From Rhodoglobus sp. (GTDB taxonomy: Bacteria > Actinomycetota > Actinomycetes > Actinomycetales > Microbacteriaceae): 64,000 nt of DNA. The position numbers were made by a program, and so were the translations under genes. Positions within the stretch are counted from its first letter, which is position 1; every line of letters begins with the position of its first letter. The stretch covers positions 1-64,000 of the forward strand of contig JAODAQ010000035.1 in NCBI GenBank assembly GCA_025463515.1, read 5' to 3'. This document shows, piece by piece, positions 2,720-53,109 of this stretch. The notes beneath the pieces are model-generated. The model had not been told where the DNA came from and made no database searches. It worked only from the letters and a program-made list of their open reading frames with translations.

Positions 2720-4039
2720 CTAGAGCGCGGCCTCGACCTCGGTGAACGCCTCGTCGTAGATCGACAGGGCCTGCGCCACCTGGTCAGGAGTCACGATGCA
2801 CGGCGGCACCACGTGGATGCGGTTGTCGGCGGCGAAGGGCAGCAGTCCGCGGTCCATGAGCGCCTTCTTGAGCTGCAGGATGACGCCGCCCGAGACGGGC
2901 TGGCGCGACTCGCGGTCGTCGACCAGGTCAAGGGCCCAGAACACGCCAAGGCCGCGCACGTCGCCGATGAGGGGATGCTTCGCCGCGAGATCGGCGAGGC
3001 CCGGCGCGAGGTGCTCGCTGCCGATGGACTTGGCGTTCTCGACGACCCTCTCGTCGGTCATCGCGTCGATCGAGCCGACGATCGACGCCATGGCGAGCGG
3101 GTGGCCCGAGTAGGTGAGACCGCCGGGGAAGACCTGCGACTCGAAGGCGTTCGCGATCGACTCGGAGATGAGCACGCCGCCCGTGGGCACGTAGCCGGAG
3201 TTCACGCCCTTCGCGAAGGTCACGAGGTCGGGGGTGACGCCGCCGTCGATGCCCTGCCAGGCGAACCACTCCCCCGTGCGGCCGAAGCCGCACATGACCT
3301 CGTCGAAGATCAGGACGATGCCGTACTTGTCGCACAGGGCGCGCACGCCGCGGAGGTAGCCGGCGGGCGGCACGAGCACGCCTGCGGTGCCGGGCACTGT
3401 CTCAAGCAGAATCGCGGCGATGCCGTTGGAGCCCTCGGACAGGATGACGCGCTCGAGGTGCTGCAGGGCGCGCTCGCTCTCCTGCTCCTCCGACTCCGCC
3501 CAGAACTCCGAGCGGTACTGGAACGGGCCGAAGAAGTGCGCGTGCCCGCGCGAGTACTCGTTCGGCTGGCGCCGCCAGTCGCCGGTCGCGACGATCGCCG
3601 CACCGGTGTTGCCGTGGTAGCTGCGGTAGGCGGAGAGCACCTTGTCGCGGCCGGTCGTGAGCCGTGCCATCCGGATCGCGTTCTCGTTCGCATCCGCACC
3701 GCCGTTGGTGAAGAAGACTTTGCCGAACGGGCCGTCGGCCTTCGAGATGATGCGCTTGGCGGCCTCGCCGCGCGCGAGGTTGGCATGGGCTGGGGCGACC
3801 GTCGCGAGCACGTCGGCCTGAGCCTTGATCGCGCCGATGATCGCCGGATGCTGGTGCCCGAGGTTCGTGTTGACGAGCTGGCTCGAGAAGTCGAGGTAGT
3901 GCTTGCCGTCGTAGTCCCACACCTCGCTGCCGAGGCCGCCGGCGATCACGAACGGGGTGAGCGCGCCCTGGGCCGACCACGAGTGGAACACGTGCGCCCG
4001 GTCGAGGTCGTACGCGAGCTGGCCGTCTGCTGAAGTCAT
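2720..4039 (-). CDS. Class III (omega-amino acid) aminotransferase, probable beta-alanine transaminase
   Basis: This 439-residue PLP enzyme is of aminotransferase class III. The motif IFDEVMCGFGRTGEWFAW (about residues 245-262) contains the Asp that binds the PLP ring nitrogen. The PLP lysine is in TFAKGVNSGYVPTGG (about 275-289), and the N-terminal half holds FTNGGADANENAIRMAR. It is the last gene of the operon with dihydropyrimidinase and beta-ureidopropionase, whose product is beta-alanine. I therefore infer that it moves the amino group of beta-alanine or beta-aminoisobutyrate to a keto acid, giving malonic or methylmalonic semialdehyde. Family members vary widely in substrate (taurine, GABA, beta-alanine), so the substrate rests on context. 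It is separated from the upstream lipoprotein gene by a strong hairpin. Confidence 0.85.
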   Translation of the reverse strand: MTSADGQLAYDLDRAHVFHSWSAQGALTPFVIAGGLGSEVWDYDGKHYLDFSSQLVNTNLGHQHPAIIGAIKAQADVLATVAPAHANLARGEAAKRIISKADGPFGKVFFTNGGADANENAIRMARLTTGRDKVLSAYRSYHGNTGAAIVATGDWRRQPNEYSRGHAHFFGPFQYRSEFWAESEEQESERALQHLERVILSEGSNGIAAILLETVPGTAGVLVPPAGYLRGVRALCDKYGIVLIFDEVMCGFGRTGEWFAWQGIDGGVTPDLVTFAKGVNSGYVPTGGVLISESIANAFESQVFPGGLTYSGHPLAMASIVGSIDAMTDERVVENAKSIGSEHLAPGLADLAAKHPLIGDVRGLGVFWALDLVDDRESRQPVSGGVILQLKKALMDRGLLPFAADNRIHVVPPCIVTPDQVAQALSIYDEAFTEVEAAL

Positions 4040-4060
4040 GGTGATTCCTATCGGGATGAA

Positions 4061-4088
4061 GCGGAGGCCGCCCGAAGACGGCCTCCGC
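4061..4088 (-). terminator. Intra-operon hairpin between substrate-binding protein and aminotransferase
   Basis: A perfect 10-bp stem GCGGAGGCCG/CGGCCTCCGC closes an 8-nt loop. It starts 6 nt after the lipoprotein stop codon and is followed by TTCATCCC rather than a U run. It probably protects the binding-protein mRNA or partly attenuates the aminotransferase gene. Confidence 0.6.
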
Positions 4089-4093
4089 TCACA

Positions 4094-5260
4094 CTACTGT
4101 CCGCCCTCGGTGAGGGTCACGTCGATCGGCGTGTACGCGCCGTCGACCACGACACCATCCGCGGCGAGCTCGTCGAGCGCCTTCTGGATGTACGTGTTCG
4201 AGTACGCGGAGTCAGCCGGCTCGGCCGTGATGAGGTTGAGGCCGTCCTGGTTGACCGCCGCGAGGGCGCCCTTGACGGTCTTGTCCCACGCCGCCTGGTC
4301 GACGAGCCCGAACGGGCCGCCGGCCCAGATGAGCTTGTTGACCTCGTTCATCTGCCAGAGCTGGTGCACGGGGCCGACCGGGAAGGCCGCCTCGGCGTTG
4401 ATCGCGGCGTTGTACGTGATCTCCGCAGCCTGCTCGGGGTTGTCCCGGGCGAAGATCCAGCCCTTCGTCACGGCCTTGAGGAAGCGCACGGCGGCATCGG
4501 CGTATGCCGGGTCCTCCAGGCGCTTGGTGTCGGCCCACAGGGCGTCCTGGAGCATCGCGCCGTCGGTGTCCTCGTACGAGACGACGTCGAAGTCCTCGGG
4601 CTGGTAGAGCTTGCCGGTCGCGGGGTTCACGACCTCGAGGATCTGCGCCCACTCGTTGTAAGTCATCGCCTGCGCGGCGTCGACGTCACCGTCGAGGAGG
4701 GCGTTCATCGAGAAGTCCTGCGTCGTGATGGAGACCGAGGTCGAGTCGAGGTCCTCCGCGGCCATGGCCGCGAAGATCTCCCACTCGTTGCCGAAGCCCC
4801 ACGAGCCGATGCGCTTGCCCTCGAAGTCCGAGACGGAGGAGACCCCGTCGCCCTTGAACGACACCTGCAGGGTGCCCGACTTCTGGTAGACCTGCGCGAT
4901 GTCGGTGAGCTCGGCGCCCGTTGCCTCGAGGGTGCCGAGAACCTTCGGGACCCACGCGACGGCGAAGTCGACGTCGCCTGCCACGAGGGCGTCCTGCGGG
5001 ACGATGTCGCCGCCCGACGGGACGATATCGACGGTGTCGAAGCCCTCGTCCTCGAAGTAGCCCTGGTCGAGAGCCACGTAGTAGCCCGCGAACTGCGCCT
5101 GCGGAAGCCACTGGAGCTGCAGCTTGATCGAGGTGATCGGTTCGAAATCACCCGTGTCTGTGCCGGTGTCCGGCGCGGGGGCGGAGCACGCGGCGAGCGC
5201 GATTGCCGTTGCGGCGGCCACTGAGGCGACCGTTAGGCCGCGTCTGGTGCTGTGTCTCAT
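4094..5260 (-). CDS. ABC transporter substrate-binding lipoprotein, NMT1/THI5-like
   Basis: The 388-residue protein has a lipoprotein signal (MRHSTRRG, hydrophobic stretch, lipobox ALAAC with the cysteine near residue 25) and a mature part opening with IKLQLQWLPQAQFAGYYVA, the hallmark of NMT1/THI5-like binding proteins. It would be anchored outside the membrane and hand substrate to the two permeases encoded just upstream. Relatives bind pyrimidine-like compounds, sulfonates or nitrate. The operon context suggests a pyrimidine, dihydropyrimidine or hydantoin. It lies third from the ATPase (order permease, ATPase, permease, lipoprotein), typical of the SsuABC/TauABC/ThiXYZ group. Confidence 0.9.
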   Translation of the reverse strand: MRHSTRRGLTVASVAAATAIALAACSAPAPDTGTDTGDFEPITSIKLQLQWLPQAQFAGYYVALDQGYFEDEGFDTVDIVPSGGDIVPQDALVAGDVDFAVAWVPKVLGTLEATGAELTDIAQVYQKSGTLQVSFKGDGVSSVSDFEGKRIGSWGFGNEWEIFAAMAAEDLDSTSVSITTQDFSMNALLDGDVDAAQAMTYNEWAQILEVVNPATGKLYQPEDFDVVSYEDTDGAMLQDALWADTKRLEDPAYADAAVRFLKAVTKGWIFARDNPEQAAEITYNAAINAEAAFPVGPVHQLWQMNEVNKLIWAGGPFGLVDQAAWDKTVKGALAAVNQDGLNLITAEPADSAYSNTYIQKALDELAADGVVVDGAYTPIDVTLTEGGQ

Positions 5261-5303
5261 GCTGTTCCTTTCGATGGGTGGTGCGGATGGAGCAGGGTGC
5301 CGG

Positions 5304-6110
5304 TCAGACCGGCCTTCCCCTCGTCACGAGCCGCTCGAGCAGCGACATGACGAGGAAGAGCACGAGTCCGATGGCGATGCCGCCGGCGACGTAGGCGAAG
5401 GCCAGGGCCGCGTGCCCGGATTTCGCGTAGCTGGCGATCGCGGTGCCGATGCCGTCGGCGGGGCCGCCGAAGTACTCGGCGACGAGGGCCGCGATGACGG
5501 CGATCGAGCTCGCGATCCGCAGGCCGGTGAGCAGGTACGGCAGCGCCGTCGGCAGTGTCAGCACCCGGAAGGTCTGCAGCCCGCTGGCGCCGGAGGCCCG
5601 CAGCAGGTCGCGGTGCACGGGCCGGGTCTGCCGCAGCCCGCGCAGCACGTTCACGAACACGGGCACGAACGCCGCGATCGCGGCCACGTACTGCCGGCCG
5701 AACTGGCTGGAGGCGCCGAACATGGTGTTGAGGATCGGCGTGATCGCCACGATGGGCACGACGGCGATCGCCGCGACCAGCGGCGCGAGCATCCCGTCCA
5801 TCGGCCTGAACGTCGCCGCGAGGGCGGCGAGCACGATCGCCACGACGGCGCCGACCGCGAGCCCGACGAGGGCGTTGGTGGCCGTGATGCCCATGTCCTC
5901 GAGGATGATGTCGTAGTGCTCGGCGAGCTGGCCCACGATCGCGACCGGGCTGGGCAGGGCGCGCGGCGCCGCGTGCAGCACGTCGACGACGAGGAACCAG
6001 AGCGCGAGGATGATCGCGCCCACGACGATCGGAGCTACCACCCGCGCTGCGCGGGATCTCGACTCCGCTCGATCAGCGGAGGCGGCGCGATCAGCGGCGA
6101 CGGCGGTCAT
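5304..6110 (-). CDS. ABC transporter permease (BPD type)
   Basis: The 268-residue membrane protein has about six hydrophobic segments and the EAA-like cytoplasmic loop LLRASGASGLQTFRVLTLPTALPYLLTGLRIA (about residues 165-196) that docks on the ATPase. It overlaps the ATPase gene by 4 nt (ATGA), indicating coupled translation. With the other permease at 6889-7785 it likely forms a heterodimeric channel. Confidence 0.9.
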   Translation of the reverse strand: MTAVAADRAASADRAESRSRAARVVAPIVVGAIILALWFLVVDVLHAAPRALPSPVAIVGQLAEHYDIILEDMGITATNALVGLAVGAVVAIVLAALAATFRPMDGMLAPLVAAIAVVPIVAITPILNTMFGASSQFGRQYVAAIAAFVPVFVNVLRGLRQTRPVHRDLLRASGASGLQTFRVLTLPTALPYLLTGLRIASSIAVIAALVAEYFGGPADGIGTAIASYAKSGHAALAFAYVAGGIAIGLVLFLVMSLLERLVTRGRPV

Positions 6111-6892
6111 CGTTCGTTCGCCCGCTCGACCGGCGCCCCGTGGAGTGCCTCGCGCACCGCGGTCACGCGCTCGAAGTACTCGGGCGACTCCCGGAGTGCC
6201 TCGGTGCGGGCATCCCCCAGCCCTGTCGTGAGGATGTCGGTGATGCGGCCGGGGCGCGGGCTCATGACCACCACCCGGTCGGAGAGGAACACCGCCTCGG
6301 GGATCGAGTGCGTCACGAACACGACTGCAGCGCCGGTCTCGGCGGCGATGCGCGCGAGCTCGCCCTGCAGGTACTCGCGGGTCATCTCGTCGAGCGCGCC
6401 GAACGGCTCGTCCATGAGGAGCAGGCGCGGCTGCTCGGCGAGCGCACGGGCGATCGCGACCCGCTGCTGCATGCCGCCCGAGAGCTGGTCGGGGTAGCGG
6501 TCCACGAAGTCATCAAGGCCGACGAGCGCCGCGAGCTCGGCAACGCGGTCGGCGCGGGCCTTCTTCGAGACCCCGTGCAGCTCGAGGGGCAGCGCGATGT
6601 TGCCCGCAACTGTGCGCCAGGGCAGGAGACCCGCCTGCTGGAACGCTATGCCGTAGTCCTGGTCGATGCGGGCCTGACGGGCGGCCTTGCCGAAGACCTC
6701 GAGCTCGCCCGTGGTCGCGGAGTCGAGGTCGGCGATGAGGCGCAGCAGGGTCGACTTGCCGCAGCCCGAGGGGCCGATCAGGGAGACGAACTCGCCGGGC
6801 TCGACGGTCAGCTCGACGTCGGTCAGGGCGACCACATCGCCGGACTTGGTGCCGAAGGTCTTGCCGACGCCCTTCGCAATGACTGCACTCAT
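6107..6892 (-). CDS. ABC transporter ATP-binding protein (SsuB/TauB-like)
   Basis: The start at 6892 (MSAVIAKGVGKTFGT) was chosen because it overlaps the upstream permease stop as ATGA; the longer frame upstream is the permease read in another frame. The protein (261 residues) carries Walker A GPSGCGKSTLL, the Q-loop IAFQQAGLLPW, the signature LSGGMQQRVAIARAL, Walker B LLLMDEPFGALD and the switch histidine in VFVTHSIPEA. It energises the importer of this operon. Confidence 0.94.
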   Translation of the reverse strand: MSAVIAKGVGKTFGTKSGDVVALTDVELTVEPGEFVSLIGPSGCGKSTLLRLIADLDSATTGELEVFGKAARQARIDQDYGIAFQQAGLLPWRTVAGNIALPLELHGVSKKARADRVAELAALVGLDDFVDRYPDQLSGGMQQRVAIARALAEQPRLLLMDEPFGALDEMTREYLQGELARIAAETGAAVVFVTHSIPEAVFLSDRVVVMSPRPGRITDILTTGLGDARTEALRESPEYFERVTAVREALHGAPVERANER

Positions 6893-7785
6893 ACTGCTGC
6901 CTCTCCCCTGCGGTAGTTCCTGAGGCCGAGGCCCACGAGTGCGACGGATCCGGCCGCCACGAGTCCCAGTGCGATCGAGCCGAACGTGGGGCCCCACGGT
7001 GCTGCCGGGTCACTGGAGCCCTGCCCTGCCAGCTGGATGAGCATCCGGCCGATGCCGCCGCGCATGCCGATCGAGACCTCCGCGACGACCGCGCCGACCA
7101 CCGCGTTGGCGGCGGCGAGCCGCAGCGCGGGCAGCAGGTGCGGTACCGCGGCGGGCAGCCGGAGCCGGAACAGGGTCGGCCAGTACCCGGCGGCATAGGT
7201 GCGCATGAGGTCGAGATGGATGCGGTCGGGAGACTCGAGGCCGCGGAGCACACCCACGGCCACCGGGAAGAACGCGAGGTACGACGCGATGACCGCGACG
7301 GAGAGCCACTGCGGCCACGGTACTGTTCCCGCCCGGTCGACCTGCGAGCCGATGCTCGCGATCAGCGGCGCGAACGCGATGAGCGGCACCGTCTGGCTCA
7401 CGACGATCCACGGCAGGAGGCCCCACTCGGCAAGGCGCCAGCGCTGCATGACGAGCCCGAGCAGGGCGCCGACGGCGACGCCGATGAGCCAGCCGACCGC
7501 GGCGATCCCCAGGGTCGTGAGCGCCGCGGTGACCACCGGGACGATCAGGGGCGGAGTGTCGCCGCCGCTCGCGGACTGGAACAGCCGCGCGACCATGTCC
7601 CAGATGTGCGGCATCGCGCGGTCGTTGGTCCGCGGGAGGATCATCACTCCCGAGCCGGTCTCGCCCGCGACGGCGCCGACGATCAGGCCGTCGGCCGGGC
7701 CGAGGAACTTGTACAGCTCCCAGGCTACGAGCACGGCGAGCACGCCGAGCGCCCCCCACGCGATGGCTGCCCGGCTACGACTCAT
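6889..7785 (-). CDS. ABC transporter permease (BPD type)
   Basis: The start ATG at 7785 (MSRSRAAIAWGALGVL) overlaps the LLM gene stop as ATGA; this gives 298 residues. The permease core spans about residues 85-290 with the loop LMRTYAAGYWPTLFRLRLPA as the ATPase contact. An extra-long first periplasmic loop (about residues 25-70) separates TM1 from the core. Its partner is the permease at 5304-6110. Confidence 0.9.
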   Translation of the reverse strand: MSRSRAAIAWGALGVLAVLVAWELYKFLGPADGLIVGAVAGETGSGVMILPRTNDRAMPHIWDMVARLFQSASGGDTPPLIVPVVTAALTTLGIAAVGWLIGVAVGALLGLVMQRWRLAEWGLLPWIVVSQTVPLIAFAPLIASIGSQVDRAGTVPWPQWLSVAVIASYLAFFPVAVGVLRGLESPDRIHLDLMRTYAAGYWPTLFRLRLPAAVPHLLPALRLAAANAVVGAVVAEVSIGMRGGIGRMLIQLAGQGSSDPAAPWGPTFGSIALGLVAAGSVALVGLGLRNYRRGEAAV

Positions 7786-8798
7786 GCCTTGGCGACGATG
7801 TGCTCGCGAAGGGCCGGCATGACGGTCTCGCCGTACACGCGGAGGGTCTCCTCCTTGTTGTCGTGCTGGAGGTAGCCCGCGAACTGGTCGACGCCGAGCT
7901 CCTTGAGCGCCTTGAGCTTCTCGATGTGCTGCTCGGCGGTGCCCAGGACGCAGAAGCGGTCGACGATGTCGTCCGGCACGAAGTCGACGTGGTCGTTGCC
8001 CGACTTGCCGTGTGAGTTGTAGTCGTAGCCCTCGCGCGCCTTGATGTAGTCGGTGAGCGCCTTCGGCACGTTCGAGCCCTCGCCGTATTTTGCGACGATG
8101 TCGGCGACGTGGTTGCCGACCATCCCTCCGAACCAGCGGGTCTGGTTGCGCATGTGCTCCACGTCGGTGCCGATGTACATCGGGGCTGCGACGCAGAACT
8201 TGATGGACATCGGGTCGCGCCCGGCTGCCGCGGCGGCATCCCGGACCGTCTTGATCATCCACTCCGCGATGTCGAGGTCTGCGAGCTGCAGGATGAACCC
8301 GTCGCCCACCTCGCCCGTGAGCTTGAGCGCGAGCGGGCCGTAGGCGGCGACCCACACCTCCACCTCGGAGCCCTTCGACCACGGGAACTGCAGCTGGGCG
8401 CCGTTGTACTCCACGGGCCGCGAGTTCGCGAGCTCGCGGATCACGTGGATCGACTCGCGCAGCGTCTTGAGCGTCGTCGGCGCGCCGTTCGTCACGCGCA
8501 CGGCCGAGTCGCCGCGGCCGATACCGATGACCGTGCGGTTGCCGTACATCTCGTTGAGAGTGGCGAACACGGATGCCGTGACCGTCCAGTCACGGGTCGC
8601 TGGGTTCGTCACCATCGGGCCGACGATGACGCGGTTGGTCTGCGCGAGGATCGCGCTGTAGATCACGTACGGCTCCTCCCAGAGGAGGTGCGAGTCGAAC
8701 GTCCACACGTACTCGAAGCCGTACTGCTCCGCGAGCTTGGCGAGGTGCACGGTCCGGCTGGCCGGGGGGTTGGTCTGGAGTACTGCGCCGAATTCCAT
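7782..8798 (-). CDS. LLM-class flavin/F420-dependent oxidoreductase of the pyrimidine operon
   Basis: The 338-residue protein is a luciferase-like TIM barrel. It shows the family pattern FEYVWTFDSHLLWEEPY (about residues 28-44), GPMVTNPATRDW, IGIGRGDSAVR and an active-site-proximal ALKLTGEVGDGF near residue 180. I recall a named subgroup of LLM proteins (CPS_4043-type) found next to dihydropyrimidinase genes; this was not searched. The gene lies between dihydropyrimidinase and the transporter, with 4-nt overlap to the permease. The operon has no dihydropyrimidine dehydrogenase (PreA/PreT), so this protein is a candidate for uracil/thymine reduction, possibly with F420H2. A monooxygenase role on a related heterocycle is the alternative. 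Confidence 0.8.
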   Translation of the reverse strand: MEFGAVLQTNPPASRTVHLAKLAEQYGFEYVWTFDSHLLWEEPYVIYSAILAQTNRVIVGPMVTNPATRDWTVTASVFATLNEMYGNRTVIGIGRGDSAVRVTNGAPTTLKTLRESIHVIRELANSRPVEYNGAQLQFPWSKGSEVEVWVAAYGPLALKLTGEVGDGFILQLADLDIAEWMIKTVRDAAAAAGRDPMSIKFCVAAPMYIGTDVEHMRNQTRWFGGMVGNHVADIVAKYGEGSNVPKALTDYIKAREGYDYNSHGKSGNDHVDFVPDDIVDRFCVLGTAEQHIEKLKALKELGVDQFAGYLQHDNKEETLRVYGETVMPALREHIVAKA

Positions 8799-8821
8799 GG
8801 TGCTGCTTTCTTGGGTTCTGC

Positions 8822-8894
8822 GGGTTGAGTAGGCCGCCTGCGGCCGTATCGAAACCTGGTCTCGATACGGCCCTGGCGGGCCTACTCGACCCGC
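8822..8894. repeat. REP-like palindromic element
   Basis: The left arm GGGTTGAGTAGGCC and right arm GGCCTACTCGACCC enclose a shared core TATCGAAACC/TCTCGATACGG, so the whole element folds on itself. Its right end touches the TAG stop of the dihydropyrimidinase gene at 8895. Confidence 0.85.
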
Positions 8895-10337
8895 CTAGAT
8901 CAGGTACTGCGAGAGGCCGCGTTTGACGAACTTGCCGTCGCCCTTCGTGCCGACGTACTGGTTGTCGTTGACGACGACCTTGCCGCGCGAGATCACGGTG
9001 TCCACGTGGCCGTCGACCTCGAAACCCTCCCAGGCCGAGTGGTCCATGTTCATGTGGTGCGTCTTGCCCTCGCCGTAGCCGATCGACGTGTGGCCGTTCG
9101 GGTCGTAGATGACGATGTCGGCGTCTGCGCCGGGCTGGATGACGCCCTTCTTCCCGTAGAGGCCGAACATGCGGGCCGGGGTGGTCGCCGTGATCTCCAC
9201 CCAGCGCTCGAGCGAGATCTGGCCGTCGACGACGCCCTGGTAGAGCAGGTCCATCCGGTGCTCGACCGAACCGATGCCGTTGGGGATCTTGCGGAAGTCG
9301 CCGAGGCCGAGGTCTTTCTGGCCCTTCATGCAGAACGGGCAGTGGTCTGTCGACACCATCTGGATGTCGTTCGTGCGCAGCGACTGCCACATGGCGTGCT
9401 GGTGGCCCTCTTCCTTCGAGCGCAGCGGCGTCGAGCACACCCACTTGGCACCCTCGAACTTTCCCCACTCCGCCGACTCTGCCCCGAGCTGCTCTTCCAG
9501 CGACAGGTAGAGGTACTGCGGGCAGGTCTCGCCGAACACGTTCTGCCCGTTGTCGCGGGCCCACGCGAGCTGCTGCACTGCCTGCTTCGCCGAGACGTGC
9601 ACGACGTAGAGCGGCGCGTTCGTGAGGTCGGCGAGCATGATCGCGCGATGGGTGGCTTCCTCCTCCATCTGCCACGCGCGGGCGACACCGTGGAAGTACG
9701 GGTCGGTCTTGCCCGCCTCGGCGAGCTGGGCGGCGAGCACGTCGATCGCCGGTCCGTTCTCGGCGTGCATCATCGTCATCATGCCGGTGTCGGCGGAGAC
9801 CTGCATGGCCTTGAGGATCTGCGCGTCATCCGAGTAGAAGACGCCCGGGTAGGCCATGAAGAGCTTGAAGCTCGTGATGCCCTCGTCGGGCAGCTTGCGC
9901 ATCGCGGCGAGCGAGTCGTCGTTGACGTCACCGATGATCTGGTGGAACGCGTAGTCGATGGCGCACTGGCCCTCGGCCATGCCGTGCCAGGTCGCGAGGC
10001 CGTCGAACACCTTCTGGCCGTAGGTCTGCACGGCGAAGTCGATGATCGTCGTCGTGCCGCCCCACGCCGCGGCGCGCGATCCGGTCTCGAAATTGTCGGA
10101 TGCCGCGGTGCCGCCGAAGGGCAGCGACATGTGGGTGTGCGCGTCGATGCCTCCGGGGATCACGTACTTGCCCTGCGCATCGATGACCGTGTCGACGTTG
10201 CCCGCGACATCGAAGCCGAGCAGGCTCGAGCCCGGGGCGAGCACGGCGACGATGGTCTCGCCGTCGATGAGCACGTCGGCGAGCGACCTGCCTGTCGAGG
10301 TGACGACGGTTCCGTTCTTGATAAGCGTCTTGGCCAC
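8895..10337 (-). CDS. hydA: Dihydropyrimidinase
   Basis: This cyclic amidohydrolase opens the dihydropyrimidine ring (dihydrouracil to N-carbamoyl-beta-alanine). The 480-residue protein has the metal-binding DAHTHM at residues 65-70, the lysine expected to be carboxylated in SFKLFMAYPG, histidines in MHAENG and YVVHVSA, and the metal aspartate in STDHCPF. Length and motif order fit D-hydantoinase/dihydropyrimidinase. It follows beta-ureidopropionase in the operon, with a REP-like element in the gap, and precedes the LLM gene with another REP-like element. Hydantoin hydrolysis is a possible side or alternative activity. Confidence 0.94.
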   Translation of the reverse strand: MAKTLIKNGTVVTSTGRSLADVLIDGETIVAVLAPGSSLLGFDVAGNVDTVIDAQGKYVIPGGIDAHTHMSLPFGGTAASDNFETGSRAAAWGGTTTIIDFAVQTYGQKVFDGLATWHGMAEGQCAIDYAFHQIIGDVNDDSLAAMRKLPDEGITSFKLFMAYPGVFYSDDAQILKAMQVSADTGMMTMMHAENGPAIDVLAAQLAEAGKTDPYFHGVARAWQMEEEATHRAIMLADLTNAPLYVVHVSAKQAVQQLAWARDNGQNVFGETCPQYLYLSLEEQLGAESAEWGKFEGAKWVCSTPLRSKEEGHQHAMWQSLRTNDIQMVSTDHCPFCMKGQKDLGLGDFRKIPNGIGSVEHRMDLLYQGVVDGQISLERWVEITATTPARMFGLYGKKGVIQPGADADIVIYDPNGHTSIGYGEGKTHHMNMDHSAWEGFEVDGHVDTVISRGKVVVNDNQYVGTKGDGKFVKRGLSQYLI

Positions 10338-10361
10338 TGGTGGATCCTTTCAAGAGTCGGT

Positions 10362-10433
10362 GGTTGAGTAGGCCCTCCGGGGCCGCATCGAAACCTGGCC
10401 TCGATACGGCCGCGGGCGGCCTACTCGACCCGC
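10362..10433. repeat. REP-like palindromic element
   Basis: GGTTGAGTAGGCC opens the element and GGCCTACTCGACC closes it, with the CATCGAAACC/CTCGATACGG core between. It lies in the gap between beta-ureidopropionase and dihydropyrimidinase, inside a single-direction operon. Confidence 0.85.
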
Positions 10434-10440
10434 GAGAGCG

Positions 10441-11289
10441 CTATGGCTTGGGGATGGACGTGTAGGACTCGGGGCGGCGGTCGCGGTAGAACTGCCAGTC
10501 GTCCCGCATCTCCTGCACCATGTCCATCTCGAGGTCGCGGATGAGGACCTCCTCGTGCTCGCCCGAGCCCCGCTCGCCGACGAAGTTGCCGCGCGGGTCG
10601 ATGACCTGGCTCGTGCCGTAGAAGTCCACGGCGAGCTCGCCGTACTCGTTGTCCTCGCGCCCGACCCGGTTGGGCTGCAGCACGAAGTAGCCGTTGGCCA
10701 CGGCCGCGGCGGGTCCCTCGACCTCCCAGAGCCGGTTGCTCAGCCCCGGCTTGGTGGCGTTCGGGTTGAAGACCATGTGCGCCCCGTTGAGGCCGAGCTC
10801 GCGCCATCCCTCGGGGAAGTGCCGGTCGTAGCAGATGTAGAGGCCGATCTTGCCGACCGAGGTGTTGAACACCGGGTAGCCCATGTTCCCGGGGCGGAAG
10901 TAGAACTTCTCCCAGAACCGGTCGAGGTGCGGGATGTGGTGCTTGCGGTACTTGCCGAGGATCGTGCCGTCAGACTCCACCACGACGGCGGTGTTGTAGT
11001 ACACGCCGGTGATGTCCTCCTCGTAGATCGGCAGGATCATGACGATGCCCAGCTCCTTGGCCAGCTTCGCGAAGCGCTGCACGATGGGGCCGTCGGCGGG
11101 CTCGGCATAGCGGTAGTACTTCTTGTCCTCCGTGATGCCGAAGTAGGGCCCGTAGAACAGCTCCTGGAAGCAGATGACCTGAGCGCCGTCGGCCGCCGCG
11201 TCGCGCGCGAACTGCTCGTGTTTCGCGATCATCGACTCTTTGTCCCCGGTCCAGGTCGTCTGGGTGATTGCGGCGCGTACTACGGTCAT
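10441..11289 (-). CDS. Beta-ureidopropionase (nitrilase superfamily amidohydrolase)
   Basis: The enzyme would split N-carbamoyl-beta-alanine into beta-alanine, CO2 and ammonia, the step after dihydropyrimidinase. The 282-residue protein has the nitrilase Glu-Lys-Cys triad: Glu in ICFQELFYGPYF (about residue 43), Lys in GKYRKHHIP (about 116) and Cys in GLYICYDRHFPEGW (about 152). It is the first gene of the minus-strand operon. A GGAGG lies 6 nt before the ATG, so this start uses a conventional ribosome site. N-carbamoyl-amino acid or nitrile substrates are possible, but the neighbours favour the pyrimidine pathway. Confidence 0.92.
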   Translation of the reverse strand: MTVVRAAITQTTWTGDKESMIAKHEQFARDAAADGAQVICFQELFYGPYFGITEDKKYYRYAEPADGPIVQRFAKLAKELGIVMILPIYEEDITGVYYNTAVVVESDGTILGKYRKHHIPHLDRFWEKFYFRPGNMGYPVFNTSVGKIGLYICYDRHFPEGWRELGLNGAHMVFNPNATKPGLSNRLWEVEGPAAAVANGYFVLQPNRVGREDNEYGELAVDFYGTSQVIDPRGNFVGERGSGEHEEVLIRDLEMDMVQEMRDDWQFYRDRRPESYTSIPKP

Positions 11290-11476
11290 GCATACCTCCG
11301 GGGTCAGACCCTCATCATCGAGGGCGAACGTTTCCCCATTGTTTCTGTTTGTGACGGCCGCGTAAATAGACTGGGTGAATACAGACCCGTGCGCCGTGTA
11401 TGGCGTGGTGTGCTGCCCACGAGTTGGGGCGGCAGGTCAATCCGACCTATCACAGCCATGCCCACCGGAGGTCTTC
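11290..11476. promoter_or_regulatory. Divergent control region and long leader of the F420-type transporter
   Basis: The region separates beta-ureidopropionase (minus) from the transporter operon (plus). It contains a plausible plus-strand promoter (see 11339-11368) and a leader of about 100 nt with small stems such as AGGTC-AATCC-GACCT. An open frame crosses the leader from a GTG at 11375 but lacks any protein-like features. No riboswitch family is recognised. Confidence 0.5.
11339..11368 (+). promoter_or_regulatory. Candidate promoter of the transporter operon
   Basis: TTGTTT (11339-11344) and TAAATA (11363-11368) are separated by 18 bp, close to sigma-70-type consensus. Confidence 0.45.
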
Positions 11477-12451
11477 TTGCCCACGCTCGCCCGCGCTCTT
11501 CCCCTTGTCCTCCTCGCCTCGGTCGCCCTTTCCGGGTGCGCCGCGACACCCGCCGCCGTGCCCACGGCATCTGCCGACGCGCCTGTCACCGTGGACAACT
11601 GCGGCACCTCGGTGACGTTCGACACGGCTCCCTCGCGCGTGGTCACGATCAAGTCCACGTCGACCGAGATGCTGCTCGCGCTCGGCCTGGGCGACAGGAT
11701 CGTGGGCACCGCCTTCCAGGACGGGCCGGTGCCCGATCAGTGGGCGGCGGATGCGGCATCCCTCACGTCCATCTCCGACAAGGTGCCCAGCGAGGAGGTC
11801 GTCCTCGAGAAGCAGCCCGACCTGGTCTACGCGGGCTGGGAGTCGGCGTTCGCGGCGGACGGCGCGGGCGAGCGCCCGGAGCTCGCGAGCCTCGGCGTGA
11901 ACTCGTACGTCTCCCCCTCCGCCTGCCAGAGCGCCGAGCAGCCGGCCAAGCTCAGCTTCGACAACGTGTTCGGCGACATCACGCAGGTCGCGTCGATCTT
12001 CCGCGTCGACCCGGCCCCGCTGCTCGCGGAGCAGCAGAAGACGCTCGACTCGATCGACGTGAACGGCGACGGGCGCACGGCGTTCTGGTACTCCTCGGGC
12101 TCTGACACCCCGTACTCGGGCGCGGGCATCGGCGCACCCGAGCTCGTGCTGGAGACCGTGGGCCTGACGAACATCGCCGCCGACGTGAAGGCGACCTGGG
12201 CCCCGCTGAGCTGGGAGTCGGTTGTCGACGCCGACCCGTACTTCATCGTGCTCATCGACGCCAGCTGGAACACCGCCGCGGCGAAGATCGAGCGGCTCGA
12301 GACCAATCCCGCGACGGCCAACCTCGACGCCGTGCTCAACAAGCGGTACCTCGTGCTCCCGTTCGCGGCGAGCGAGGCGGGCGTGCGGACCGTTGAGGCC
12401 GCGGCATCCCTGTCGAAGCAGATCGCGGAGCTCGACAAGGCCGCCGATTGA
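11477..12451 (+). CDS. ABC transporter substrate-binding lipoprotein, proposed F420-0/F420-precursor type
   Basis: I chose the TTG at 11477 because GGAGG (11467-11471) lies 5 nt upstream and a lipoprotein signal follows at once (LPLVLLASVALSGC). The mature protein has the TroA/FepB-like two-lobe pattern: VVTIKSTSTEMLLALGLGDRIVG, then YAGWESAFAADGAGERPEL, and DPYFIVLIDASW near the C-terminus. The last pattern and the gene trio resemble the cassette that has been proposed to import F420-0 in actinobacteria (family recalled, not searched). Its neighbours cofD, cofC and cofE within 9 kb support an F420-related ligand; a siderophore or cobalamin ligand is the alternative. The stop codon lies in a REP-like element. 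Confidence 0.8.
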   Translation: MPTLARALPLVLLASVALSGCAATPAAVPTASADAPVTVDNCGTSVTFDTAPSRVVTIKSTSTEMLLALGLGDRIVGTAFQDGPVPDQWAADAASLTSISDKVPSEEVVLEKQPDLVYAGWESAFAADGAGERPELASLGVNSYVSPSACQSAEQPAKLSFDNVFGDITQVASIFRVDPAPLLAEQQKTLDSIDVNGDGRTAFWYSSGSDTPYSGAGIGAPELVLETVGLTNIAADVKATWAPLSWESVVDADPYFIVLIDASWNTAAAKIERLETNPATANLDAVLNKRYLVLPFAASEAGVRTVEAAASLSKQIAELDKAAD

Positions 12452-12505
12452 GCTCGTCGAATTCCAGGCCTCGATACGGCCGCGGGCGGCACTCTCGACC
12501 AGCCT
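12446..12505. repeat. REP-like element spanning the substrate-binding protein stop and permease start
   Basis: The left arm GATTGAGCTCGTCGAATTCC and the right part CCTCGATACGGCCGCGGGCG plus a CTCTCGACCAGCC end match the other elements. The left arm includes the TGA stop of the binding-protein gene, and the rest is read as the first 20 codons of the permease frame. Confidence 0.75.
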
Positions 12506-13490
12506 TGATCGGACTGGCGCTCGGGGCCGTCCTCGTCGCGTCGATCGTCGTCGCGGTCACGATCGGCCCCGCGAGCATCACCTTCGGCGAGGTGTGGGGC
12601 TCGATCGGCAGCCATCTCGGACTCGGGGCCTCGCCGCTGCCGCCGCTGCGCGACGGCATCGTGTGGGAGCTACGGCTGCCGCGCGTGCTCACGGCGGCCG
12701 CGGTCGGGGCCGGACTCGCGATCGCGGGCGCCGTCATGCAGGCGATCACGCGCAACCCGCTCGCCGACCCGTACCTGCTCGGCCTCTCCTCGGGGGCCTC
12801 GCTCGGCGCGGTGAGCGTCGTGCTGCTCGGAGCCTCGCTGCTGCTGCCGGTGGCGGCGTTCCTCGGGTCGATGGTCGCACTCGGCCTCACCCTCGCGCTT
12901 GCGAGCTCGCTCGGCGCGATCACGCCCACGCGCACCGTCCTCGCCGGGCTCGCGGTGTCGTCGCTCGCCGGCGCGATCACGAGCCTGGTGATCTTCTGGA
13001 CGGCGACGGGCGACTCGTACCGCGAGATCCTCAGCTGGCTGCTCGGCTCTCTCGCCGGAGCACGGTGGCCCGCGGTCGCGATCGCCGTCGTCGCACTCGT
13101 CGTCGCGGGCATCCCGATCATGCTCAGCGGCCGGCTCCTCGACGCGTTCGCGTTCGGGGATGTCTCGGCCTCCTCCCTCGGCGTCAATGTGCCCGCCACC
13201 CGCTGGGGGCTCCTCGCCGCCACCGCCCTGCTGACCGGGGCGATGGTCTCCGTGAGCGGATCGATCGGCTTCGTGGGCCTCATCCTCCCGCACGGGGTCC
13301 GGCTGCTCGTAGGCCCCGGCCACCGCGCACTGCTCCCCCTGAGCGCCCTCGTCGGAGCGGTGTTCCTGCTCTGGGCAGACACCGCTGCGCGCAGCCTCTT
13401 CGACCCGCGGGAGCTGCCGGTGGGGATTGTCACGGCGATCATCGGCGCCCCGATCTTCGCGCTGCTGCTGGGCCGCCGCCGGAGCGAGAC

Positions 13491-13494
<4 letters not shown>
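12448..13494 (+). CDS. ABC transporter permease, FecCD family (proposed F420-precursor importer)
   Basis: The protein has the FecCD/BtuC layout of about ten transmembrane helices with the family motifs LRLPRVLTAAAVGAGLAIAG (about residues 73-92), RNPLADPYLLGLSSGA and GSIGFVGLILPHGVRLLVGP. The frame opens at a TTG (12448) overlapping the upstream stop. Its first about 20 residues (SSSNSRPRYGRGRHSRPA) are encoded by a REP-like element, so a second TTG at 12505 (LIGLALGAVL), directly before the first membrane helix, is an equally good start. It overlaps the ATPase gene as GTGA. Confidence 0.88.
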
Positions 13495-14261
<767 letters not shown>

Positions 14262-17859: not shown

Positions 17860-17871
17860 GGTCCCGGGCGC

Positions 17872-18879
<1,008 letters not shown>

Positions 18880-18936
18880 GCTATGAGTCTGCCACGGGTA
18901 ACGAACGGGTCACGCTGGGAATTACCTGCGGATACC

Positions 18937-19296
18937 TCAGGGCTTGGGGTCCTCGGAGCGCTTCGCCTTCAACTGCGCCTCCAGCCGGCGGATCTCAGCC
19001 TGCTTCTCGTGGTACTCGATCTCCCGTTCGACGGCGGCCAGATCGTCCTCGGTGCTCGACCCCTGCGGGAGGCTCTCGCGCCGCCTCGGGTCGCCGAAGC
19101 TGCCGTGGTCGACCGGCGCCGTGCGCTCCTTGCCGAGCACGAACCAGAGGATCGAGCCGATCAGCGGCAGGAACACGATGAGCAGCACCCACGCGACCTT
19201 CGGCAGGTAGCGGATTCGCCAGTTGTCGGAGGTGACGGCGTCGACGATGGCGAAGATCATGACCGCGAGCAGCAGGAGCGAGAGGATCTGGGCCAT
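18937..19296 (-). CDS. Small membrane protein with PLDc_N-like domain
   Basis: The 119-residue protein has two membrane helices (ILSLLLLAVMIFAIVDAV and VAWVLLIVFLPLIGSILWFVLG) in the pattern of the PLDc_N (cardiolipin-synthase N-terminal) domain, then a charged helical tail with AAVEREIEYHEKQAEIRRLE. No catalytic domain follows. The start ATG at 19296 is 6 nt from a TATGGT -10 box. It is divergent from cofD with only 30 nt between the starts. Role unknown. Confidence 0.82.
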   Translation of the reverse strand: MAQILSLLLLAVMIFAIVDAVTSDNWRIRYLPKVAWVLLIVFLPLIGSILWFVLGKERTAPVDHGSFGDPRRRESLPQGSSTEDDLAAVEREIEYHEKQAEIRRLEAQLKAKRSEDPKP

Positions 19297-19326: not shown

Positions 19327-20286
19327 GTGAAAGTAGTTGTTCTCTCCGGCGGCGTTGGTGGGGGCCGTTTCCTCCTCGGGGTGCGGGAGTATTTCGGCGG
19401 CACTGACGCGGAGATCACCGCGATCGTCAACGTCGGCGACGACATGTGGCTCACGGGCGTGCGCATCGCACCGGACCTCGACTCGATCATGTACTCGCTC
19501 GCCGGCGTGAACGACACCGAGCGCGGCTGGGGGCGGGCGGGCGAGAGCGAGCGGGTGAGCGCCGAACTGCGCGCGTACGGCGTCGGCTGGCCGTGGTTCA
19601 CGCTCGGCGACCTCGACCTGGGCACCCATCTCACGCGCACCCACTACCTCCGCGAGGGGCTCGGGCTCGCCGAGGCCACCCGCCGGATCACGGCGCGCTG
19701 GCCGCTCGGCGTCACCCTGCTGCCCGCCACCGACGCCGAGGTGGAGACGCAGGTCGTCACCGCCGAGGGCATCATGCACTTCCAGGAGTGGTGGACGCGC
19801 CATCGCGCCGCAATCCCCGCCCTCGGGTTCGAGTACCGCGGTGCCCCGGATTCGCAGCCCGCCCCGGGAGTGCTCGAGGCGATCGCCGGTGCCGACCTGA
19901 TCCTCATCGCGCCCTCCAACCCCGTGGTGTCGATCGCGCCGATCCTCGCGATCCCGGGCGTGCGCGAGGCGATCCGGGGTGCCTCGGCGCCGGTAGTGGG
20001 AATCTCCCCCATCATCGCGGGAGCCGTGGTCCGCGGCATGGCCGAGGCGTGCCTCACCGCGATCGGCGTCGAGACGAGCGCCTCGGCGGTGGCGCTGCAC
20101 TACGGGTCACGGGCGAGCGGGGGCATCCTCGACGCCTGGCTCGTCGACTCGGTGGACGCGGGTGTGGTCGACGTGATCGAGGGCGCGGGCATCCGGGCCG
20201 TTGCTGTTCCGCTGTGGATGACCGACCCGGCGACGACCGCGGAGATCGTGCGCGCGGCTATCGCGGTGGCTGCCGAACCAGTCTGA
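19327..20286 (+). CDS. cofD: 2-phospho-L-lactate transferase-type F420-0 synthase (CofD/FbiA)
   Basis: CofD joins the deazaflavin FO to a phospholactate-like or phosphoenolpyruvate-derived donor, making (dehydro-)F420-0. The 319-residue protein opens with VVVLSGGVGGGRFLLGV, the family glycine loop. It continues with IVNVGDDMWLTGVRIAPDLDSIMYSLAG and has the donor/phosphate-binding IAPSNPVVSIAPIL at about residues 195-208. It faces the cofC-cofE operon and overlaps the 3' end of cofC by 29 nt. Confidence 0.95.
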   Translation: MKVVVLSGGVGGGRFLLGVREYFGGTDAEITAIVNVGDDMWLTGVRIAPDLDSIMYSLAGVNDTERGWGRAGESERVSAELRAYGVGWPWFTLGDLDLGTHLTRTHYLREGLGLAEATRRITARWPLGVTLLPATDAEVETQVVTAEGIMHFQEWWTRHRAAIPALGFEYRGAPDSQPAPGVLEAIAGADLILIAPSNPVVSIAPILAIPGVREAIRGASAPVVGISPIIAGAVVRGMAEACLTAIGVETSASAVALHYGSRASGGILDAWLVDSVDAGVVDVIEGAGIRAVAVPLWMTDPATTAEIVRAAIAVAAEPV

Positions 20287-20836
20287 GGGTGCGCGCGCCC
20301 AGCCGCTCTCGCGGGATCGCGGCGAGCGCCGCGGGCGAGTCGACGTCGAGGCGGAGCCCGCTCGTCACCGGCAGGTCGAGCTCGCGGTAGCCCAGTGCGA
20401 GGTGCGCCCGGCGCGAGTCCGCGCCGAAGGCCGGGACGCGGCCCGTGATGAGAGACGTGCCGGTGCCCTCCGCATCGGGAACCATGATGCCCTCCTGCAA
20501 GGCGGCCTCGAGCTCCTCCGGCCGCAGCGCGGGGAGGTCGGCCAGCAGGACGGCCGCTGGGCCCTCGATGGTCGCGAGCGCGCGGCGGATCGCGCCGTTG
20601 AGGCCGTCGCCGGGCTCCTCCGCCATCACGGATGCCCCGAGCTGCAGGAAGGCGGAGGAGAGGCCGTCTCCGCCGATCACCAGGACCGGGGCCACCCGCA
20701 CCGCCGCCTCGACGGTGTCGAGCGCCATCGCCTCTGCCAGCTGAAGCCTGCGGCCGGGATCCCCTCCCAATCGCGACTTCGACTCCGGCGTGCCCTTGAC
20801 CGGCACGACTACCGTCCAGCTACTGCTGGGCGGCAT
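20258..20836 (-). CDS. cofC: 2-phospho-L-lactate/phosphoenolpyruvate guanylyltransferase (CofC/FbiD)
   Basis: This nucleotidyltransferase activates phospholactate or PEP with GTP to make the substrate of CofD. From the ATG at 20836 ([15 protein letters not shown]) it has 192 residues: the N-terminal [16 protein letters not shown] nucleotide loop, [14 protein letters not shown] metal site and [11 protein letters not shown] near residue 130. It overlaps cofE by 17 nt on the same strand, and convergently overlaps cofD. Confidence 0.9.
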
Positions 20837-21578
20837 GCAGCCCCGCCCGGTAGCCCTCGTCCCAGGCCTCCTGGGTGCCGAGCCGGAACATGTCCTCCGC
20901 CGCGGGCCGCACCAGGGCGCGAGCGCCGGGCTGGTCGAGGTCCGCGACGACGTGACCGAGCCCGCGGACGATCGCCACCGGCAGCCCACCGGCCTTGCCC
21001 TTGACGAGGTCGGCGGCCGCCGCGATCTCGTCCGCGGTCGCTGCGACCGTGACATCCAGCCGCCGGCCGTTCGCGTCGTTCGTGCCGCGCAGGTCGTCGA
21101 GCACCCGGATGCCCGCAGCCCCGATCGCGACATCGGTCTGCCCTTGGCGCCACGGCCGGCCGAGGGTGTCGGAGACCACGACGCCGACCCGCACCCCGAA
21201 CCGCTCGCGGAGCGCGGCGCACAGGGCGCGGGCGCTCGCGTCGGGGTCTTCGGGCAGGAGCAGCACGTGGCCGTCGGGGGTGTTGCTCGAGTCGACGCCG
21301 GCGGCCGCGAGCACGATGCCGAGGCGGTTCTCCACGATGCGCGTCACTCCGCCCGGGTGGACTCGGGATGCCACGACCCGCACGGTCTCGGCGGTGATCG
21401 CCTCCTCGCGGTCCTCGGCGACGAGGAGCCGCCCCTCGGCCTTGCTCACGATCTTCGACGTGACCGCGAGGATGTCGCCGTCAACCAGGTCGCCCGCGAC
21501 CGCGTCGCTGATGATCGCGACGAGGTCGTCGCCCGCAACAAACTCGGGCAGCCCCTCCACCGCCCAGACCGTGAGCAC
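20820..21578 (-). CDS. cofE: Coenzyme F420-0:L-glutamate ligase (CofE, stand-alone)
   Basis: CofE adds the gamma-linked glutamate tail to F420-0. The GTG at 21578 shares one base with the upstream stop (TAGTG) and gives 252 residues. Motifs are [18 protein letters not shown] (about residues 33-50), [21 protein letters not shown] (about 135-155) and the ending region [18 protein letters not shown]. Mycobacterial FbiB carries an extra C-terminal flavin domain that reduces dehydro-F420-0; that domain is absent here. Confidence 0.94.
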
Positions 21579-22579
21579 TAGCGCACCAGTTTCGGCAGGA
21601 CATCCCGGGAGAACACGTCGATCCACTCCTTCTGGTTGCGGCCAGCGTTGTGCAGGTAGACCCGGTCGAAACCGAGGTCGAGGAACTCCTGGATGCGCGC
21701 GCGGTGCCTGTCGGGATCGGCGGAGACGAGCATCCGGCCCTCGAAGTCCTCAGGGCGCACCAGCCGTGCCAGCTGCTCGAGCTCGAACGGCGAGCGCACG
21801 TCGCTCTTCGAGAAGCGCATCGCGCCGTTCGGCCACTCGGCGAGTGCGCTCGCCATGGCCTCCTCGTCGGTCGGGGCCCAGCTCAGGTTGAGCCGCAGCA
21901 CGCGCGTGAGGCTCGCGGGGTTTCGGCCCGACTCGCGCGCACCCTCCGCGAAGCGCTGCAGCAGCGGCGCGATCTTGTCGAGCGGCGCACCCTCGGTGAT
22001 GAGCCCGTCGACGGTGCGGCCCGCGCGCTTGGCCGCAACAGGGCCGGATGCCGCGACCAGGATCTCGGGAGCGACGGCCGGCATCGTCCACAGCCGGGTG
22101 GACTCGAGCCGGTAGAACTGCCCCTCGTGGCGCACATCGCGGCCCGCCAGACCGGACGCGAACAGCTTCTTGATGATGTCGACGGCCTCGAACATCCGGT
22201 TGATCCGCTCGGGCGCCTCGGGCCAGTACTGCCCGACGACGTGCTCGCTGAGCGCCTCGCCACTGCCCAGGCCCAGCCAGTGCCGGCCCGGGTACATCGC
22301 GCCGAGCGTCGCGCTCGCCTGCGCGACGGTGGCGGGGTGCCACCGGAACGTGGGCGTCGTGACGCCGGTGCCGAGGTCGCCGGTGGTGACCTGCCCGAGC
22401 GCGCTGAGGACGTTCCAGACGAAGGACGCCTCGCCCTGGTGCGGGAGCCAGGGCTGGAAGTGGTCCGTGGCCATGACCCCGCGGAATCCCCTTGATTCGG
22501 CGTACTGGGCGAGGTCGATGGCCTCCAGTGGCGGGAACCGCTCGAGCATCGCGGCGTAGCCGATGTGCGGGAGGGTCAT
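21578..22579 (-). CDS. F420-dependent glucose-6-phosphate dehydrogenase family enzyme (LLM)
   Basis: The 333-residue LLM protein keeps the signature residues of F420-dependent glucose-6-phosphate dehydrogenase: [10 protein letters not shown] with the catalytic-type His at about residue 40 and Trp at 44, [12 protein letters not shown] with the Glu near 108, and [22 protein letters not shown] reduces F420 with glucose-6-phosphate. It leads the operon fgd-cofE-cofC, which supports a role in F420H2 supply. Identity within the family is limited enough that another sugar or alcohol substrate remains possible. Confidence 0.85.
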
Positions 22580-49998: not shown

Positions 49999-50074
49999 CG
50001 GGTTGAGTAGCGCGCTCTGGCGCGCGTATCGAAACCCGGTTTCGATACGGCCGCGGGCGGCCTACTCAACCCGC
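49999..50074. repeat. REP-like palindromic element
   Basis: GCGGGTTGAGTAGCGCG opens and GGCCTACTCAACCCGC closes the element, with GTATCGAAACC/GGTTTCGATACGG in the middle. It fills the gap between the copB stop (50079) and the lipid kinase start. Confidence 0.88.
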
Positions 50075-53073: not shown

Positions 53074-53074
53074 A

Positions 53075-53109
53075 TTTCGATACGGCCGCGGGCGGCCTAC
53101 TCAACCCGC
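53075..53109. repeat. Half REP-like element
   Basis: Only the right arm is present (TTTCGATACGGCCGCGGGCG and CCTACTCAACCCGCC). It fills the gap between the convergent MBL and DUF2207 genes and abuts the DUF2207 TAG stop. Confidence 0.75.

Follow-up and report, generated by a model that had tools for sequence, protein, structure and literature searches.

A predicted reductive pyrimidine operon lacking PreA

In a 64,000-nucleotide stretch of Rhodoglobus sp. DNA (contig JAODAQ010000035.1, positions 1 to 64,000; the whole stretch is hereafter called the window), profile searches of the window proteins identified an eight-gene operon on the minus strand, which runs from 11289 down to 2720 and has an oxidoreductase of the luciferase-like monooxygenase (LLM) class as its third gene. 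The operon opens with a CN-hydrolase gene (10441..11289; PF00795) for a probable beta-ureidopropionase (N-carbamoyl-beta-amino acid hydrolase), followed by a dihydropyrimidinase/D-hydantoinase gene (8895..10337; TIGR02033, 536.5 bits against a cut-off of 393.25) and the gene of the TIGR03842-family LLM oxidoreductase (7782..8798; 583.4 bits against 295.45), for which we propose a role as F420H2-dependent uracil/thymine reductase. The next four genes encode an ATP-binding cassette (ABC) importer, comprising a permease (6889..7785; PF00528) whose start ATG lies on the LLM stop in an ATGA overlap (7785-7782), an ATPase (6107..6892; PF00005; the start at 6892 is inferred and is an internal Met of the 6107-6997 frame), a second permease (5304..6110; PF00528) and an NMT1/THI5-like substrate-binding protein (4094..5260; PF09084). 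The last gene encodes a class III omega-aminotransferase (2720..4039; PRK06062, 717 bits against 472).

The dihydropyrimidinase, LLM, aminotransferase and importer genes that a first-pass annotation of this DNA had named were all recovered on the minus strand, with profiles over their cut-offs or Pfam matches. That annotation had also stressed the lack of PreA and PreT for the first reduction of uracil or thymine, and PreA indeed did not exceed the cut-off in the operon or in the organism's own genome (best score 37 bits versus 335; PreT was not searched by itself there). Lacking PreA, the operon is, judged from its genes, a variant of the reductive pyrimidine (Pyd) pathway and not its classical form. 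As for the proposed beta-ureidopropionase, the CN_hydrolase domain is present but the name is less certain: in PDB the protein (P0008) scored alike against N-carbamoylputrescine amidohydrolase (5h8i, 180 bits) and against beta-alanine synthase/beta-ureidopropionase chains (2vhh, 176 bits; 8pt4 and 6ftq, 167 bits). A beta-ureidopropionase is nevertheless the likely identity of this gene product. The nearest PDB chain of the aminotransferase is a taurine:2-oxoglutarate aminotransferase, and its substrate in the operon is probably beta-alanine or beta-aminoisobutyrate.

The LLM protein belongs to TIGR03842 and lies nearest to Mer

The LLM protein is a full-length member of TIGR03842 (LLM class, F420_CPS_4043), a family with the status of ‘hypothetical equivalog’ in the model library; in Pfam it matches PF00296 only, and it is not of the PreA/PydA protein family. 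The curated family that follows TIGR03842 most closely is Mer, the F420-dependent methylenetetrahydromethanopterin reductase, and the nearest solved structures are likewise those of F420-dependent Mer. Identity as a true Mer was rejected, since the scores against NF002619 and TIGR03555 (146.6 of 276 and 143.7 of 348.7 bits, respectively) fall below the cut-offs. The position aligned with Mer Glu6, the residue mutated in entry 8qq8, also differs: 134 of 135 TIGR03842-family proteins have Val, Thr or Cys there, and the remaining one has a gap. Trp32, Asp35, Arg69, Arg95, Asp97, Asn229 and His230 of the LLM protein are conserved across its family.

The LLM gene travels with F420 genes

We surveyed a phylum sample of 246 Actinomycetota genomes and a family sample of 100 genomes of the window's own family. 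CofD was counted at E up to 1e-30 and CofH at E up to 1e-20, the latter limit being fixed before the result, while the permease of the F420-0-type importer was counted by its curated cut-off, as general permeases match at 1e-20 (77/100 genomes and 13/14 control genomes). In the phylum sample, TIGR03842 was found in 53 genomes and CofD in 141 (133 over the cut-off). CofD accompanied the LLM gene in 50/53 genomes versus 91/193 of the others (Fisher p = 4.6e-11, a test that treats related genomes as independent and so overstates their independence, as it also does below); one of the 50, G195, has a CofD under the cut-off with a stop inside. Among the three LLM genomes without CofD, G173 has a CofH over the cut-off and G119 a CofH piece of 103 bits, and G160, which is 81% complete, gave neither a CofD nor a CofH match.

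A sharper pattern was observed in the family sample, where 48/100 genomes carry TIGR03842: a CofH match occurs in 19 of them and the permease of the TIGR03869 importer in the remaining 29, with none having both and none having neither. Six of the 19 CofH matches are over the cut-off and 13 under it; most of these 13 sit in open frames some 800 residues long or longer, the length that a fused FbiC would have. Of the 29 importer permeases, 28 exceed the cut-off, and that of G294 (409 of 437 bits) was included by hand once the list had been seen. In the 52 family genomes that lack TIGR03842, CofH occurs twice and the importer once, and 49 genomes have neither (Fisher p = 2e-25). This mutual exclusion of CofH and importer is a stronger point than the p-values. 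Seven genomes with importer and LLM (G225, G251, G266, G308, G324, G328 and G333) are single contigs of 99-100% completeness, so that the missing CofH is no assembly gap there. CofD was present in 18/19 CofH-type and 20/29 importer-type LLM genomes. The importer lay within 20 kb of the LLM gene in 24/29 genomes, and importer or CofD did so in 40/48.

The LLM subfamily is thus found with F420 genes in both samples, and not mostly without them, which would have spoken against the first-pass proposal. From co-occurrence, shared operons and the nearest structures, the protein appears to be an F420 user. As a separate observation, plasmids of Mycetohabitans rhizoxinica (e.g. NC_014718) carry preA, and this species is described, in the available parts of two papers, as a producer of 3PG-F420 (PMC8498797, PMC13367373); F420 alone therefore does not bring the LLM variant.

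The LLM gene travels with pyrimidine genes and without PreA

A scan of the genome collection confirmed at least 584 relatives, and the best 80 were examined; these are close relatives only, of the Salinibacterium, Leifsonia, Agromyces and Arthrobacter kind, together with some metagenome-assembled genomes labelled Actinomycetota only. Counting neighbours as tblastn hits above 80 bits, we found CN-hydrolase, dihydropyrimidinase and LLM genes together in 80/80, with the dihydropyrimidinase gene at most 400 bp away on the same strand, the aminotransferase in 65 and the binding protein in 55; PreA and PreT were absent from these loci within the stretch compared. Genes of the cof set (39) or the importer (29) occurred in the same stretch in 56 of the 80, mostly upstream and divergent, and the 24 loci with neither include seven whose upstream sequence is no longer than 5.1 kb and 17 with about 7.5 kb.

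A wider view came from 53 further loci in 52 Actinomycetota genomes (second LLM pieces in G106 and G227 lie outside this set), all without PreA and PreT. Dihydropyrimidinase was found in 38 and a beta-ureidopropionase of either family in 48, namely the CN-hydrolase in 29 and an unrelated Zn-hydrolase in 19, and one or other ring-opening or beta-ureidopropionase gene lies within 3 kb on the same strand in 47/53. The LLM gene is found beside both kinds of beta-ureidopropionase, which speaks for a role in the pathway as such and not for a tie to one particular gene. Gene orders vary, from dihydropyrimidinase, aminotransferase, Zn-hydrolase, NCS1 symporter and LLM (L118, L136) to CN-hydrolase, dihydropyrimidinase, methylmalonate-semialdehyde dehydrogenase (MMSDH) and LLM (L135, L119). 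In two loci, L160 (G225) and L170 (G237), the LLM gene matches as two tblastn pieces within otherwise ordinary clusters, perhaps through decay or sequencing error.

At the genome level, TIGR02033 was found in 50/53 LLM genomes versus 25/193 LLM-free genomes of the phylum sample (p = 1.5e-29). PreA over the cut-off was found in only 2/246 genomes (G191 and G208), neither with the LLM gene, and in 0/100 genomes of the family sample. The first-pass proposal withstood these genomic tests, with the LLM gene nearly always accompanied by dihydropyrimidinase and by F420 genes and no PreA over the cut-off in any sampled LLM genome.

preTA-based and F420-based modules on Rhodobacterales plasmids

The PreTA-type arrangement is seen in G208 (L171), where preT, preA, a Zn hydrolase and dihydropyrimidinase follow one another, the hydrolase being 52-59% identical to those beside LLM genes elsewhere. 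A closer comparison was offered by plasmid records of Rhodobacterales. Plasmids of Qingshengfaniella and Roseinatronobacter (L177, L178) carry preT, preA, a TetR regulator, a Zn hydrolase, hydA and an ABC importer, the preT genes being named by their 55-56% identity to preT of G208. A Leisingera aquaemixtae plasmid (L175) carries an NCS1 carrier, hydA, a Zn hydrolase, an aminotransferase and pntBA, with a divergent operon of cofG, cofH, cofD, cofC, cofE, npdG, the LLM gene and a TetR regulator. Between Leisingera and Qingshengfaniella, identity reaches 74% for hydA, 73% for the Zn hydrolase and 47% for the TetR regulator, and the Leisingera regulator is nearest to RutR (TIGR03613, 198 bits, below the cut-off of 368). 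These plasmids thus hold, as far as their genes can be read, two alternative pyrimidine modules, one preTA-based and one F420-based, around similar hydA and hydrolase genes. The PreTA system of Rhodobacterales thus has downstream genes, an ABC importer and a regulator of the kinds that also accompany the LLM. It differs in its first enzyme: where it has PreT and the iron-sulfur flavoenzyme PreA, the LLM clusters have the unrelated LLM and genes for the supply of F420.

In total, 12 plasmid records encode a protein that shares at least 44% identity with the window LLM over at least 98% of its length: ten near-identical Leisingera records, one Paracoccus and one Streptomyces without annotation, eleven being annotated as TIGR03842. 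PreA was found on 62 plasmid records, and among the 60 of these that were listed none is an LLM plasmid. Caballeronia sp. SBC2 stands apart, with preA on one replicon and, on another, the remnant of an LLM cluster (L174, about 15001-18991), in which an LLM piece matching 128 residues stands beside a Zn hydrolase, an alanine dehydrogenase and a shortened pntB, near an IS66 element.

Relatives of the operon binding protein accompany preA

Relatives of the window binding protein were found on 31 plasmid records (E up to 1e-25; sister records are included, with 9 of Deinococcus, 5 of Azospirillum, 4 of Klebsiella and 4 of Sinorhizobium). At least 28/31 also carry PreA, which lies within 20 kb of the binding-protein relative in 25; the three remaining records are Neorhizobium, with the weakest hits. 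The window ATPase shares 53% identity, and the binding protein 35%, with its counterpart in the Qingshengfaniella preTA cluster, and the nearest PDB chains of the binding protein are 4nmy, the FAMP-binding 3ix1 (a thiamine-type pyrimidine) and yeast THI5. As relatives of the importer serve PreTA clusters, they most simply import what PreTA reduces, and this gene company favours the reading that the operon importer brings in the base itself.

Weighing the F420H2-dependent reductase against other readings

We consider it likely, from these comparisons, that the operon serves reductive pyrimidine degradation and that an F420H2-dependent LLM enzyme, and not PreTA, catalyzes the first step. This was the proposal of the first-pass annotation, and comparative genomics supports it: gene content, family membership, co-occurrence and the replacement of PreTA are direct observations.

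Several findings weigh against it. PreA is so rare in the phylum that not finding it in LLM genomes carries little weight on its own. Dihydropyrimidinase occurs in 24/246 genomes with neither LLM nor PreA and is hence alone no proof of a reductase; as CofD too is lacking in 10 of the 25 genomes that have dihydropyrimidinase and no LLM, these counts show that other entries or other substrates exist. No ring-opening gene was found within 3 kb on the same strand in 6/53 further loci, of which L125, L129, L133 and L145 are stretches below 11 kb ended by contig ends and L142 and L153 are not. The cof-npdG-LLM operon of Paracoccus alcaliphilus is followed by an ABC importer, and the annotation shows neither dihydropyrimidinase nor beta-ureidopropionase within 12 kb of the LLM gene. 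NCS1 carriers, as found beside some LLM genes, include carriers of hydantoin and of allantoin, and the score of the operon CN-hydrolase does not separate it from N-carbamoylputrescine amidohydrolase. Six LLM-free family genomes have CofD, three of them without CofH and importer. The counts themselves overstate independence, both in the Fisher tests and in the plasmid records, ten of the 12 LLM plasmids being near-identical. Finally, the predicted LLM model has two low-confidence stretches (residues 36-40 and 97-105) close to where the active site is presumed to lie, and the own genome (95.4% complete) gave no CofH match, so that F420 must be salvaged for the proposed reduction to hold.

Some of these points bear on a reading in which the operon takes up and breaks down dihydropyrimidines, hydantoins or some other cyclic ureide, with the LLM reducing or oxidising that other compound, such as a 5-unsaturated hydantoin or the purine-derived yanthine. 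Dihydropyrimidinase and D-hydantoinase share one model, TIGR02033, the hydantoin carriers of NCS1 and the 24 genomes with dihydropyrimidinase only would fit, and a putative F420-dependent LLM has been proposed for yanthine reduction in uric acid clusters of Chloroflexota, according to the accessible portion of that paper (PMC12507026). The relatives of the binding protein, however, sit with preA, whose substrates are uracil and thymine, and the omega-aminotransferase and MMSDH fit beta-amino acids and not the alpha-amino acids that hydantoins yield. In addition, the regulator flanking the Leisingera LLM is RutR-like, if below the cut-off. The RutR family senses pyrimidines. We therefore regard this reading as unlikely; uptake of dihydropyrimidines or hydantoins, the alternative raised in the first-pass annotation, is weakened by the company of preA and by the preTA replacement in Rhodobacterales plasmids, and dihydropyrimidine uptake as the whole story was set aside for the former reason.

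It is very unlikely that the LLM uses F420 at the pathway end, as a malonate-semialdehyde reductase or 3-hydroxyacid dehydrogenase (compare the F420-dependent alcohol dehydrogenase Adf), with the first reduction made elsewhere or unneeded: the LLM clusters of Rhodobacterales are the very ones without preTA, no sampled LLM genome has a PreA over the cut-off, and MMSDH, which handles the semialdehyde, shares the locus with the LLM gene in 17/80 and 13/53 loci.

An FMN-dependent monooxygenase of the RutA kind, beside F420 genes by coincidence, is the least credible reading. RutA shares the LLM fold and a place in pyrimidine catabolism with the window LLM but is far from it in sequence: the 24 NCBIfam families that matched at E up to 0.001 include no RutA model, and the PDB sequence matches at 1e-5 include no RutA chain. 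RutA uses FMN and oxygen for an oxidative ring opening, after which dihydropyrimidinase would have nothing to do, and the F420 co-occurrence of 48/48 and 50/53 speaks against this reading as well.

F420 genes in the window and probable precursor salvage

The first-pass annotation had placed F420 assembly genes 8 kb from the operon, and cofD and cofE were both found over their cut-offs: cofD/fbiA, for 2-phospho-L-lactate transferase, at 19327..20286 on the plus strand (TIGR01819, 327.1 bits against 257.45), and cofE, for coenzyme F420-0:L-glutamate ligase, at 20820..21626 on the minus strand (PRK13294, 323.6 against 304; TIGR01916, 247.9 against 180.65). A closer link to F420, absent from that annotation, is a three-gene F420-0-type importer cassette divergent from the operon, with 85 bp between the reading frames. 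This putative F420-precursor ABC importer lies on the plus strand and consists of a binding protein (11375..12451; TIGR03868, 446.0 bits against 392.4), a permease (12448..13494; TIGR03869, 494.4 against 437.35) and an ATPase (13491..14261), the last assigned by position and reading frame with an inferred start and matched with the other two genes in relatives. A second LLM gene of the F420_G6P family (21578..22579, minus strand; TIGR03557, 270.1 bits against 210.4) falls below the cut-off for F420-dependent glucose-6-phosphate dehydrogenase (211.6 of 420 bits) and encodes a possible F420 reducer; that it reduces F420 in the window organism is our guess.

With no CofH match, Rhodoglobus sp. 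has to obtain the deazaflavin head from elsewhere, provided that the own genome is complete in this respect, and CofD and CofE probably turn an imported precursor into F420. That CofD and CofE would finish F420 suggests that the divergent importer can carry FO, and the retention of CofD in 20/29 importer genomes suggests FO as a cargo; the nine LLM genomes with importer and without CofD would need F420-0 or later forms. The importer models are named for F420-0 as a putative cargo. Across the family, the mutual exclusion of importer and CofH points to a widespread salvage of F420 precursors.

Other features of the window

Downstream of the operon lie a yceD-type gene and an RNase III gene, both outside the pathway. 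An imperfect 75-base palindrome (8820-8894; 37-nt arms, 81% complementary, 1-nt loop) lies between the dihydropyrimidinase and LLM genes, and its core GGTTTCGATACGGC recurs at 10382-10395, upstream of dihydropyrimidinase, and at 50038-50051 and 53073-53086. With five matches in the window at up to one mismatch versus 0.01 expected, this is an element resembling repetitive extragenic palindromes.

Relation to known systems

Two precedents make the proposed chemistry credible. SSGG-03002/NpsU, a putative F420/FMN oxidoreductase, acts on mureidomycins and napsamycins, whose uracil ring it reduces; in the available text, this C5=C6 reduction was shown for SSGG-03002 by gene disruption and nuclear magnetic resonance, with no in vitro activity obtained (PMC10714638). 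The ring chemistry is the one proposed here, but it serves antibiotic tailoring and not catabolism, and the likeness is drawn from the published description only. In the Chloroflexota uric acid clusters mentioned above, a putative F420-dependent luciferase-family reductase was proposed from gene neighbourhood; the authors compare it with Pyd pathway variants, and the accessible portion mentions no F420 type for pyrimidines (PMC12507026). As here, a PF00296 protein would stand in for a PydA-like or YgfK reductase, but it would act on a purine (yanthine) and not a pyrimidine, and in another phylum. The terms F420 and luciferase were absent from the available part of a paper on ferredoxin-dependent dihydropyrimidine dehydrogenase (PMC7332683). 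In our search of the open-access literature, as far as its texts were available, we found no paper naming TIGR03842 and no function or enzyme activity for the family. The pathway and its other enzymes are hence of known kinds, and the F420-type first step would be the new part.

A proposed pathway and its meaning

The genes would work as follows in our reading, which extends to the cofactor, the substrate, the reaction direction and the cargo of both importers. Uracil and/or thymine would enter through the NMT1-type ABC importer, and the TIGR03842 protein would reduce the C5=C6 bond by hydride transfer from F420H2, giving dihydrouracil or dihydrothymine. Dihydropyrimidinase would then open the ring, the CN-hydrolase would remove the carbamoyl group, and the aminotransferase, followed by semialdehyde oxidation, would feed the carbon to central metabolism; in some relatives the CoA-acylating MMSDH that joins the aminotransferase may take the latter step. 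F420 would be made de novo in some lineages and, here, completed from a precursor delivered by the divergent ABC importer, and in Leisingera it would be reduced by NADPH:F420 reductase fed by PntAB.

Taken together, we find it fairly probable that an F420H2-dependent uracil/thymine reductase forms a widespread third entry to the pathway, in addition to the PreA/PydA enzymes that depend on NAD(P)H or on ferredoxin, that it is the main reason why many Microbacteriaceae keep F420, with more than half of them scavenging its precursor from neighbours, and that it moved with a whole F420 operon onto Rhodobacterales plasmids, which would partly answer why Proteobacteria make F420. The Leisingera plasmids are telling in this respect, as F420 synthesis, NADPH:F420 reductase and one LLM share one operon beside pyrimidine genes. 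If true, the finding would give TIGR03842 a function, provide a non-homologous replacement for dihydropyrimidine dehydrogenase, an enzyme whose human counterpart clears 5-fluorouracil, and assign a concrete role to F420 in bacteria where its purpose has been obscure. It would also suggest that pyrimidine use in many relatives of Rhodoglobus depends on F420 precursors released by other bacteria.

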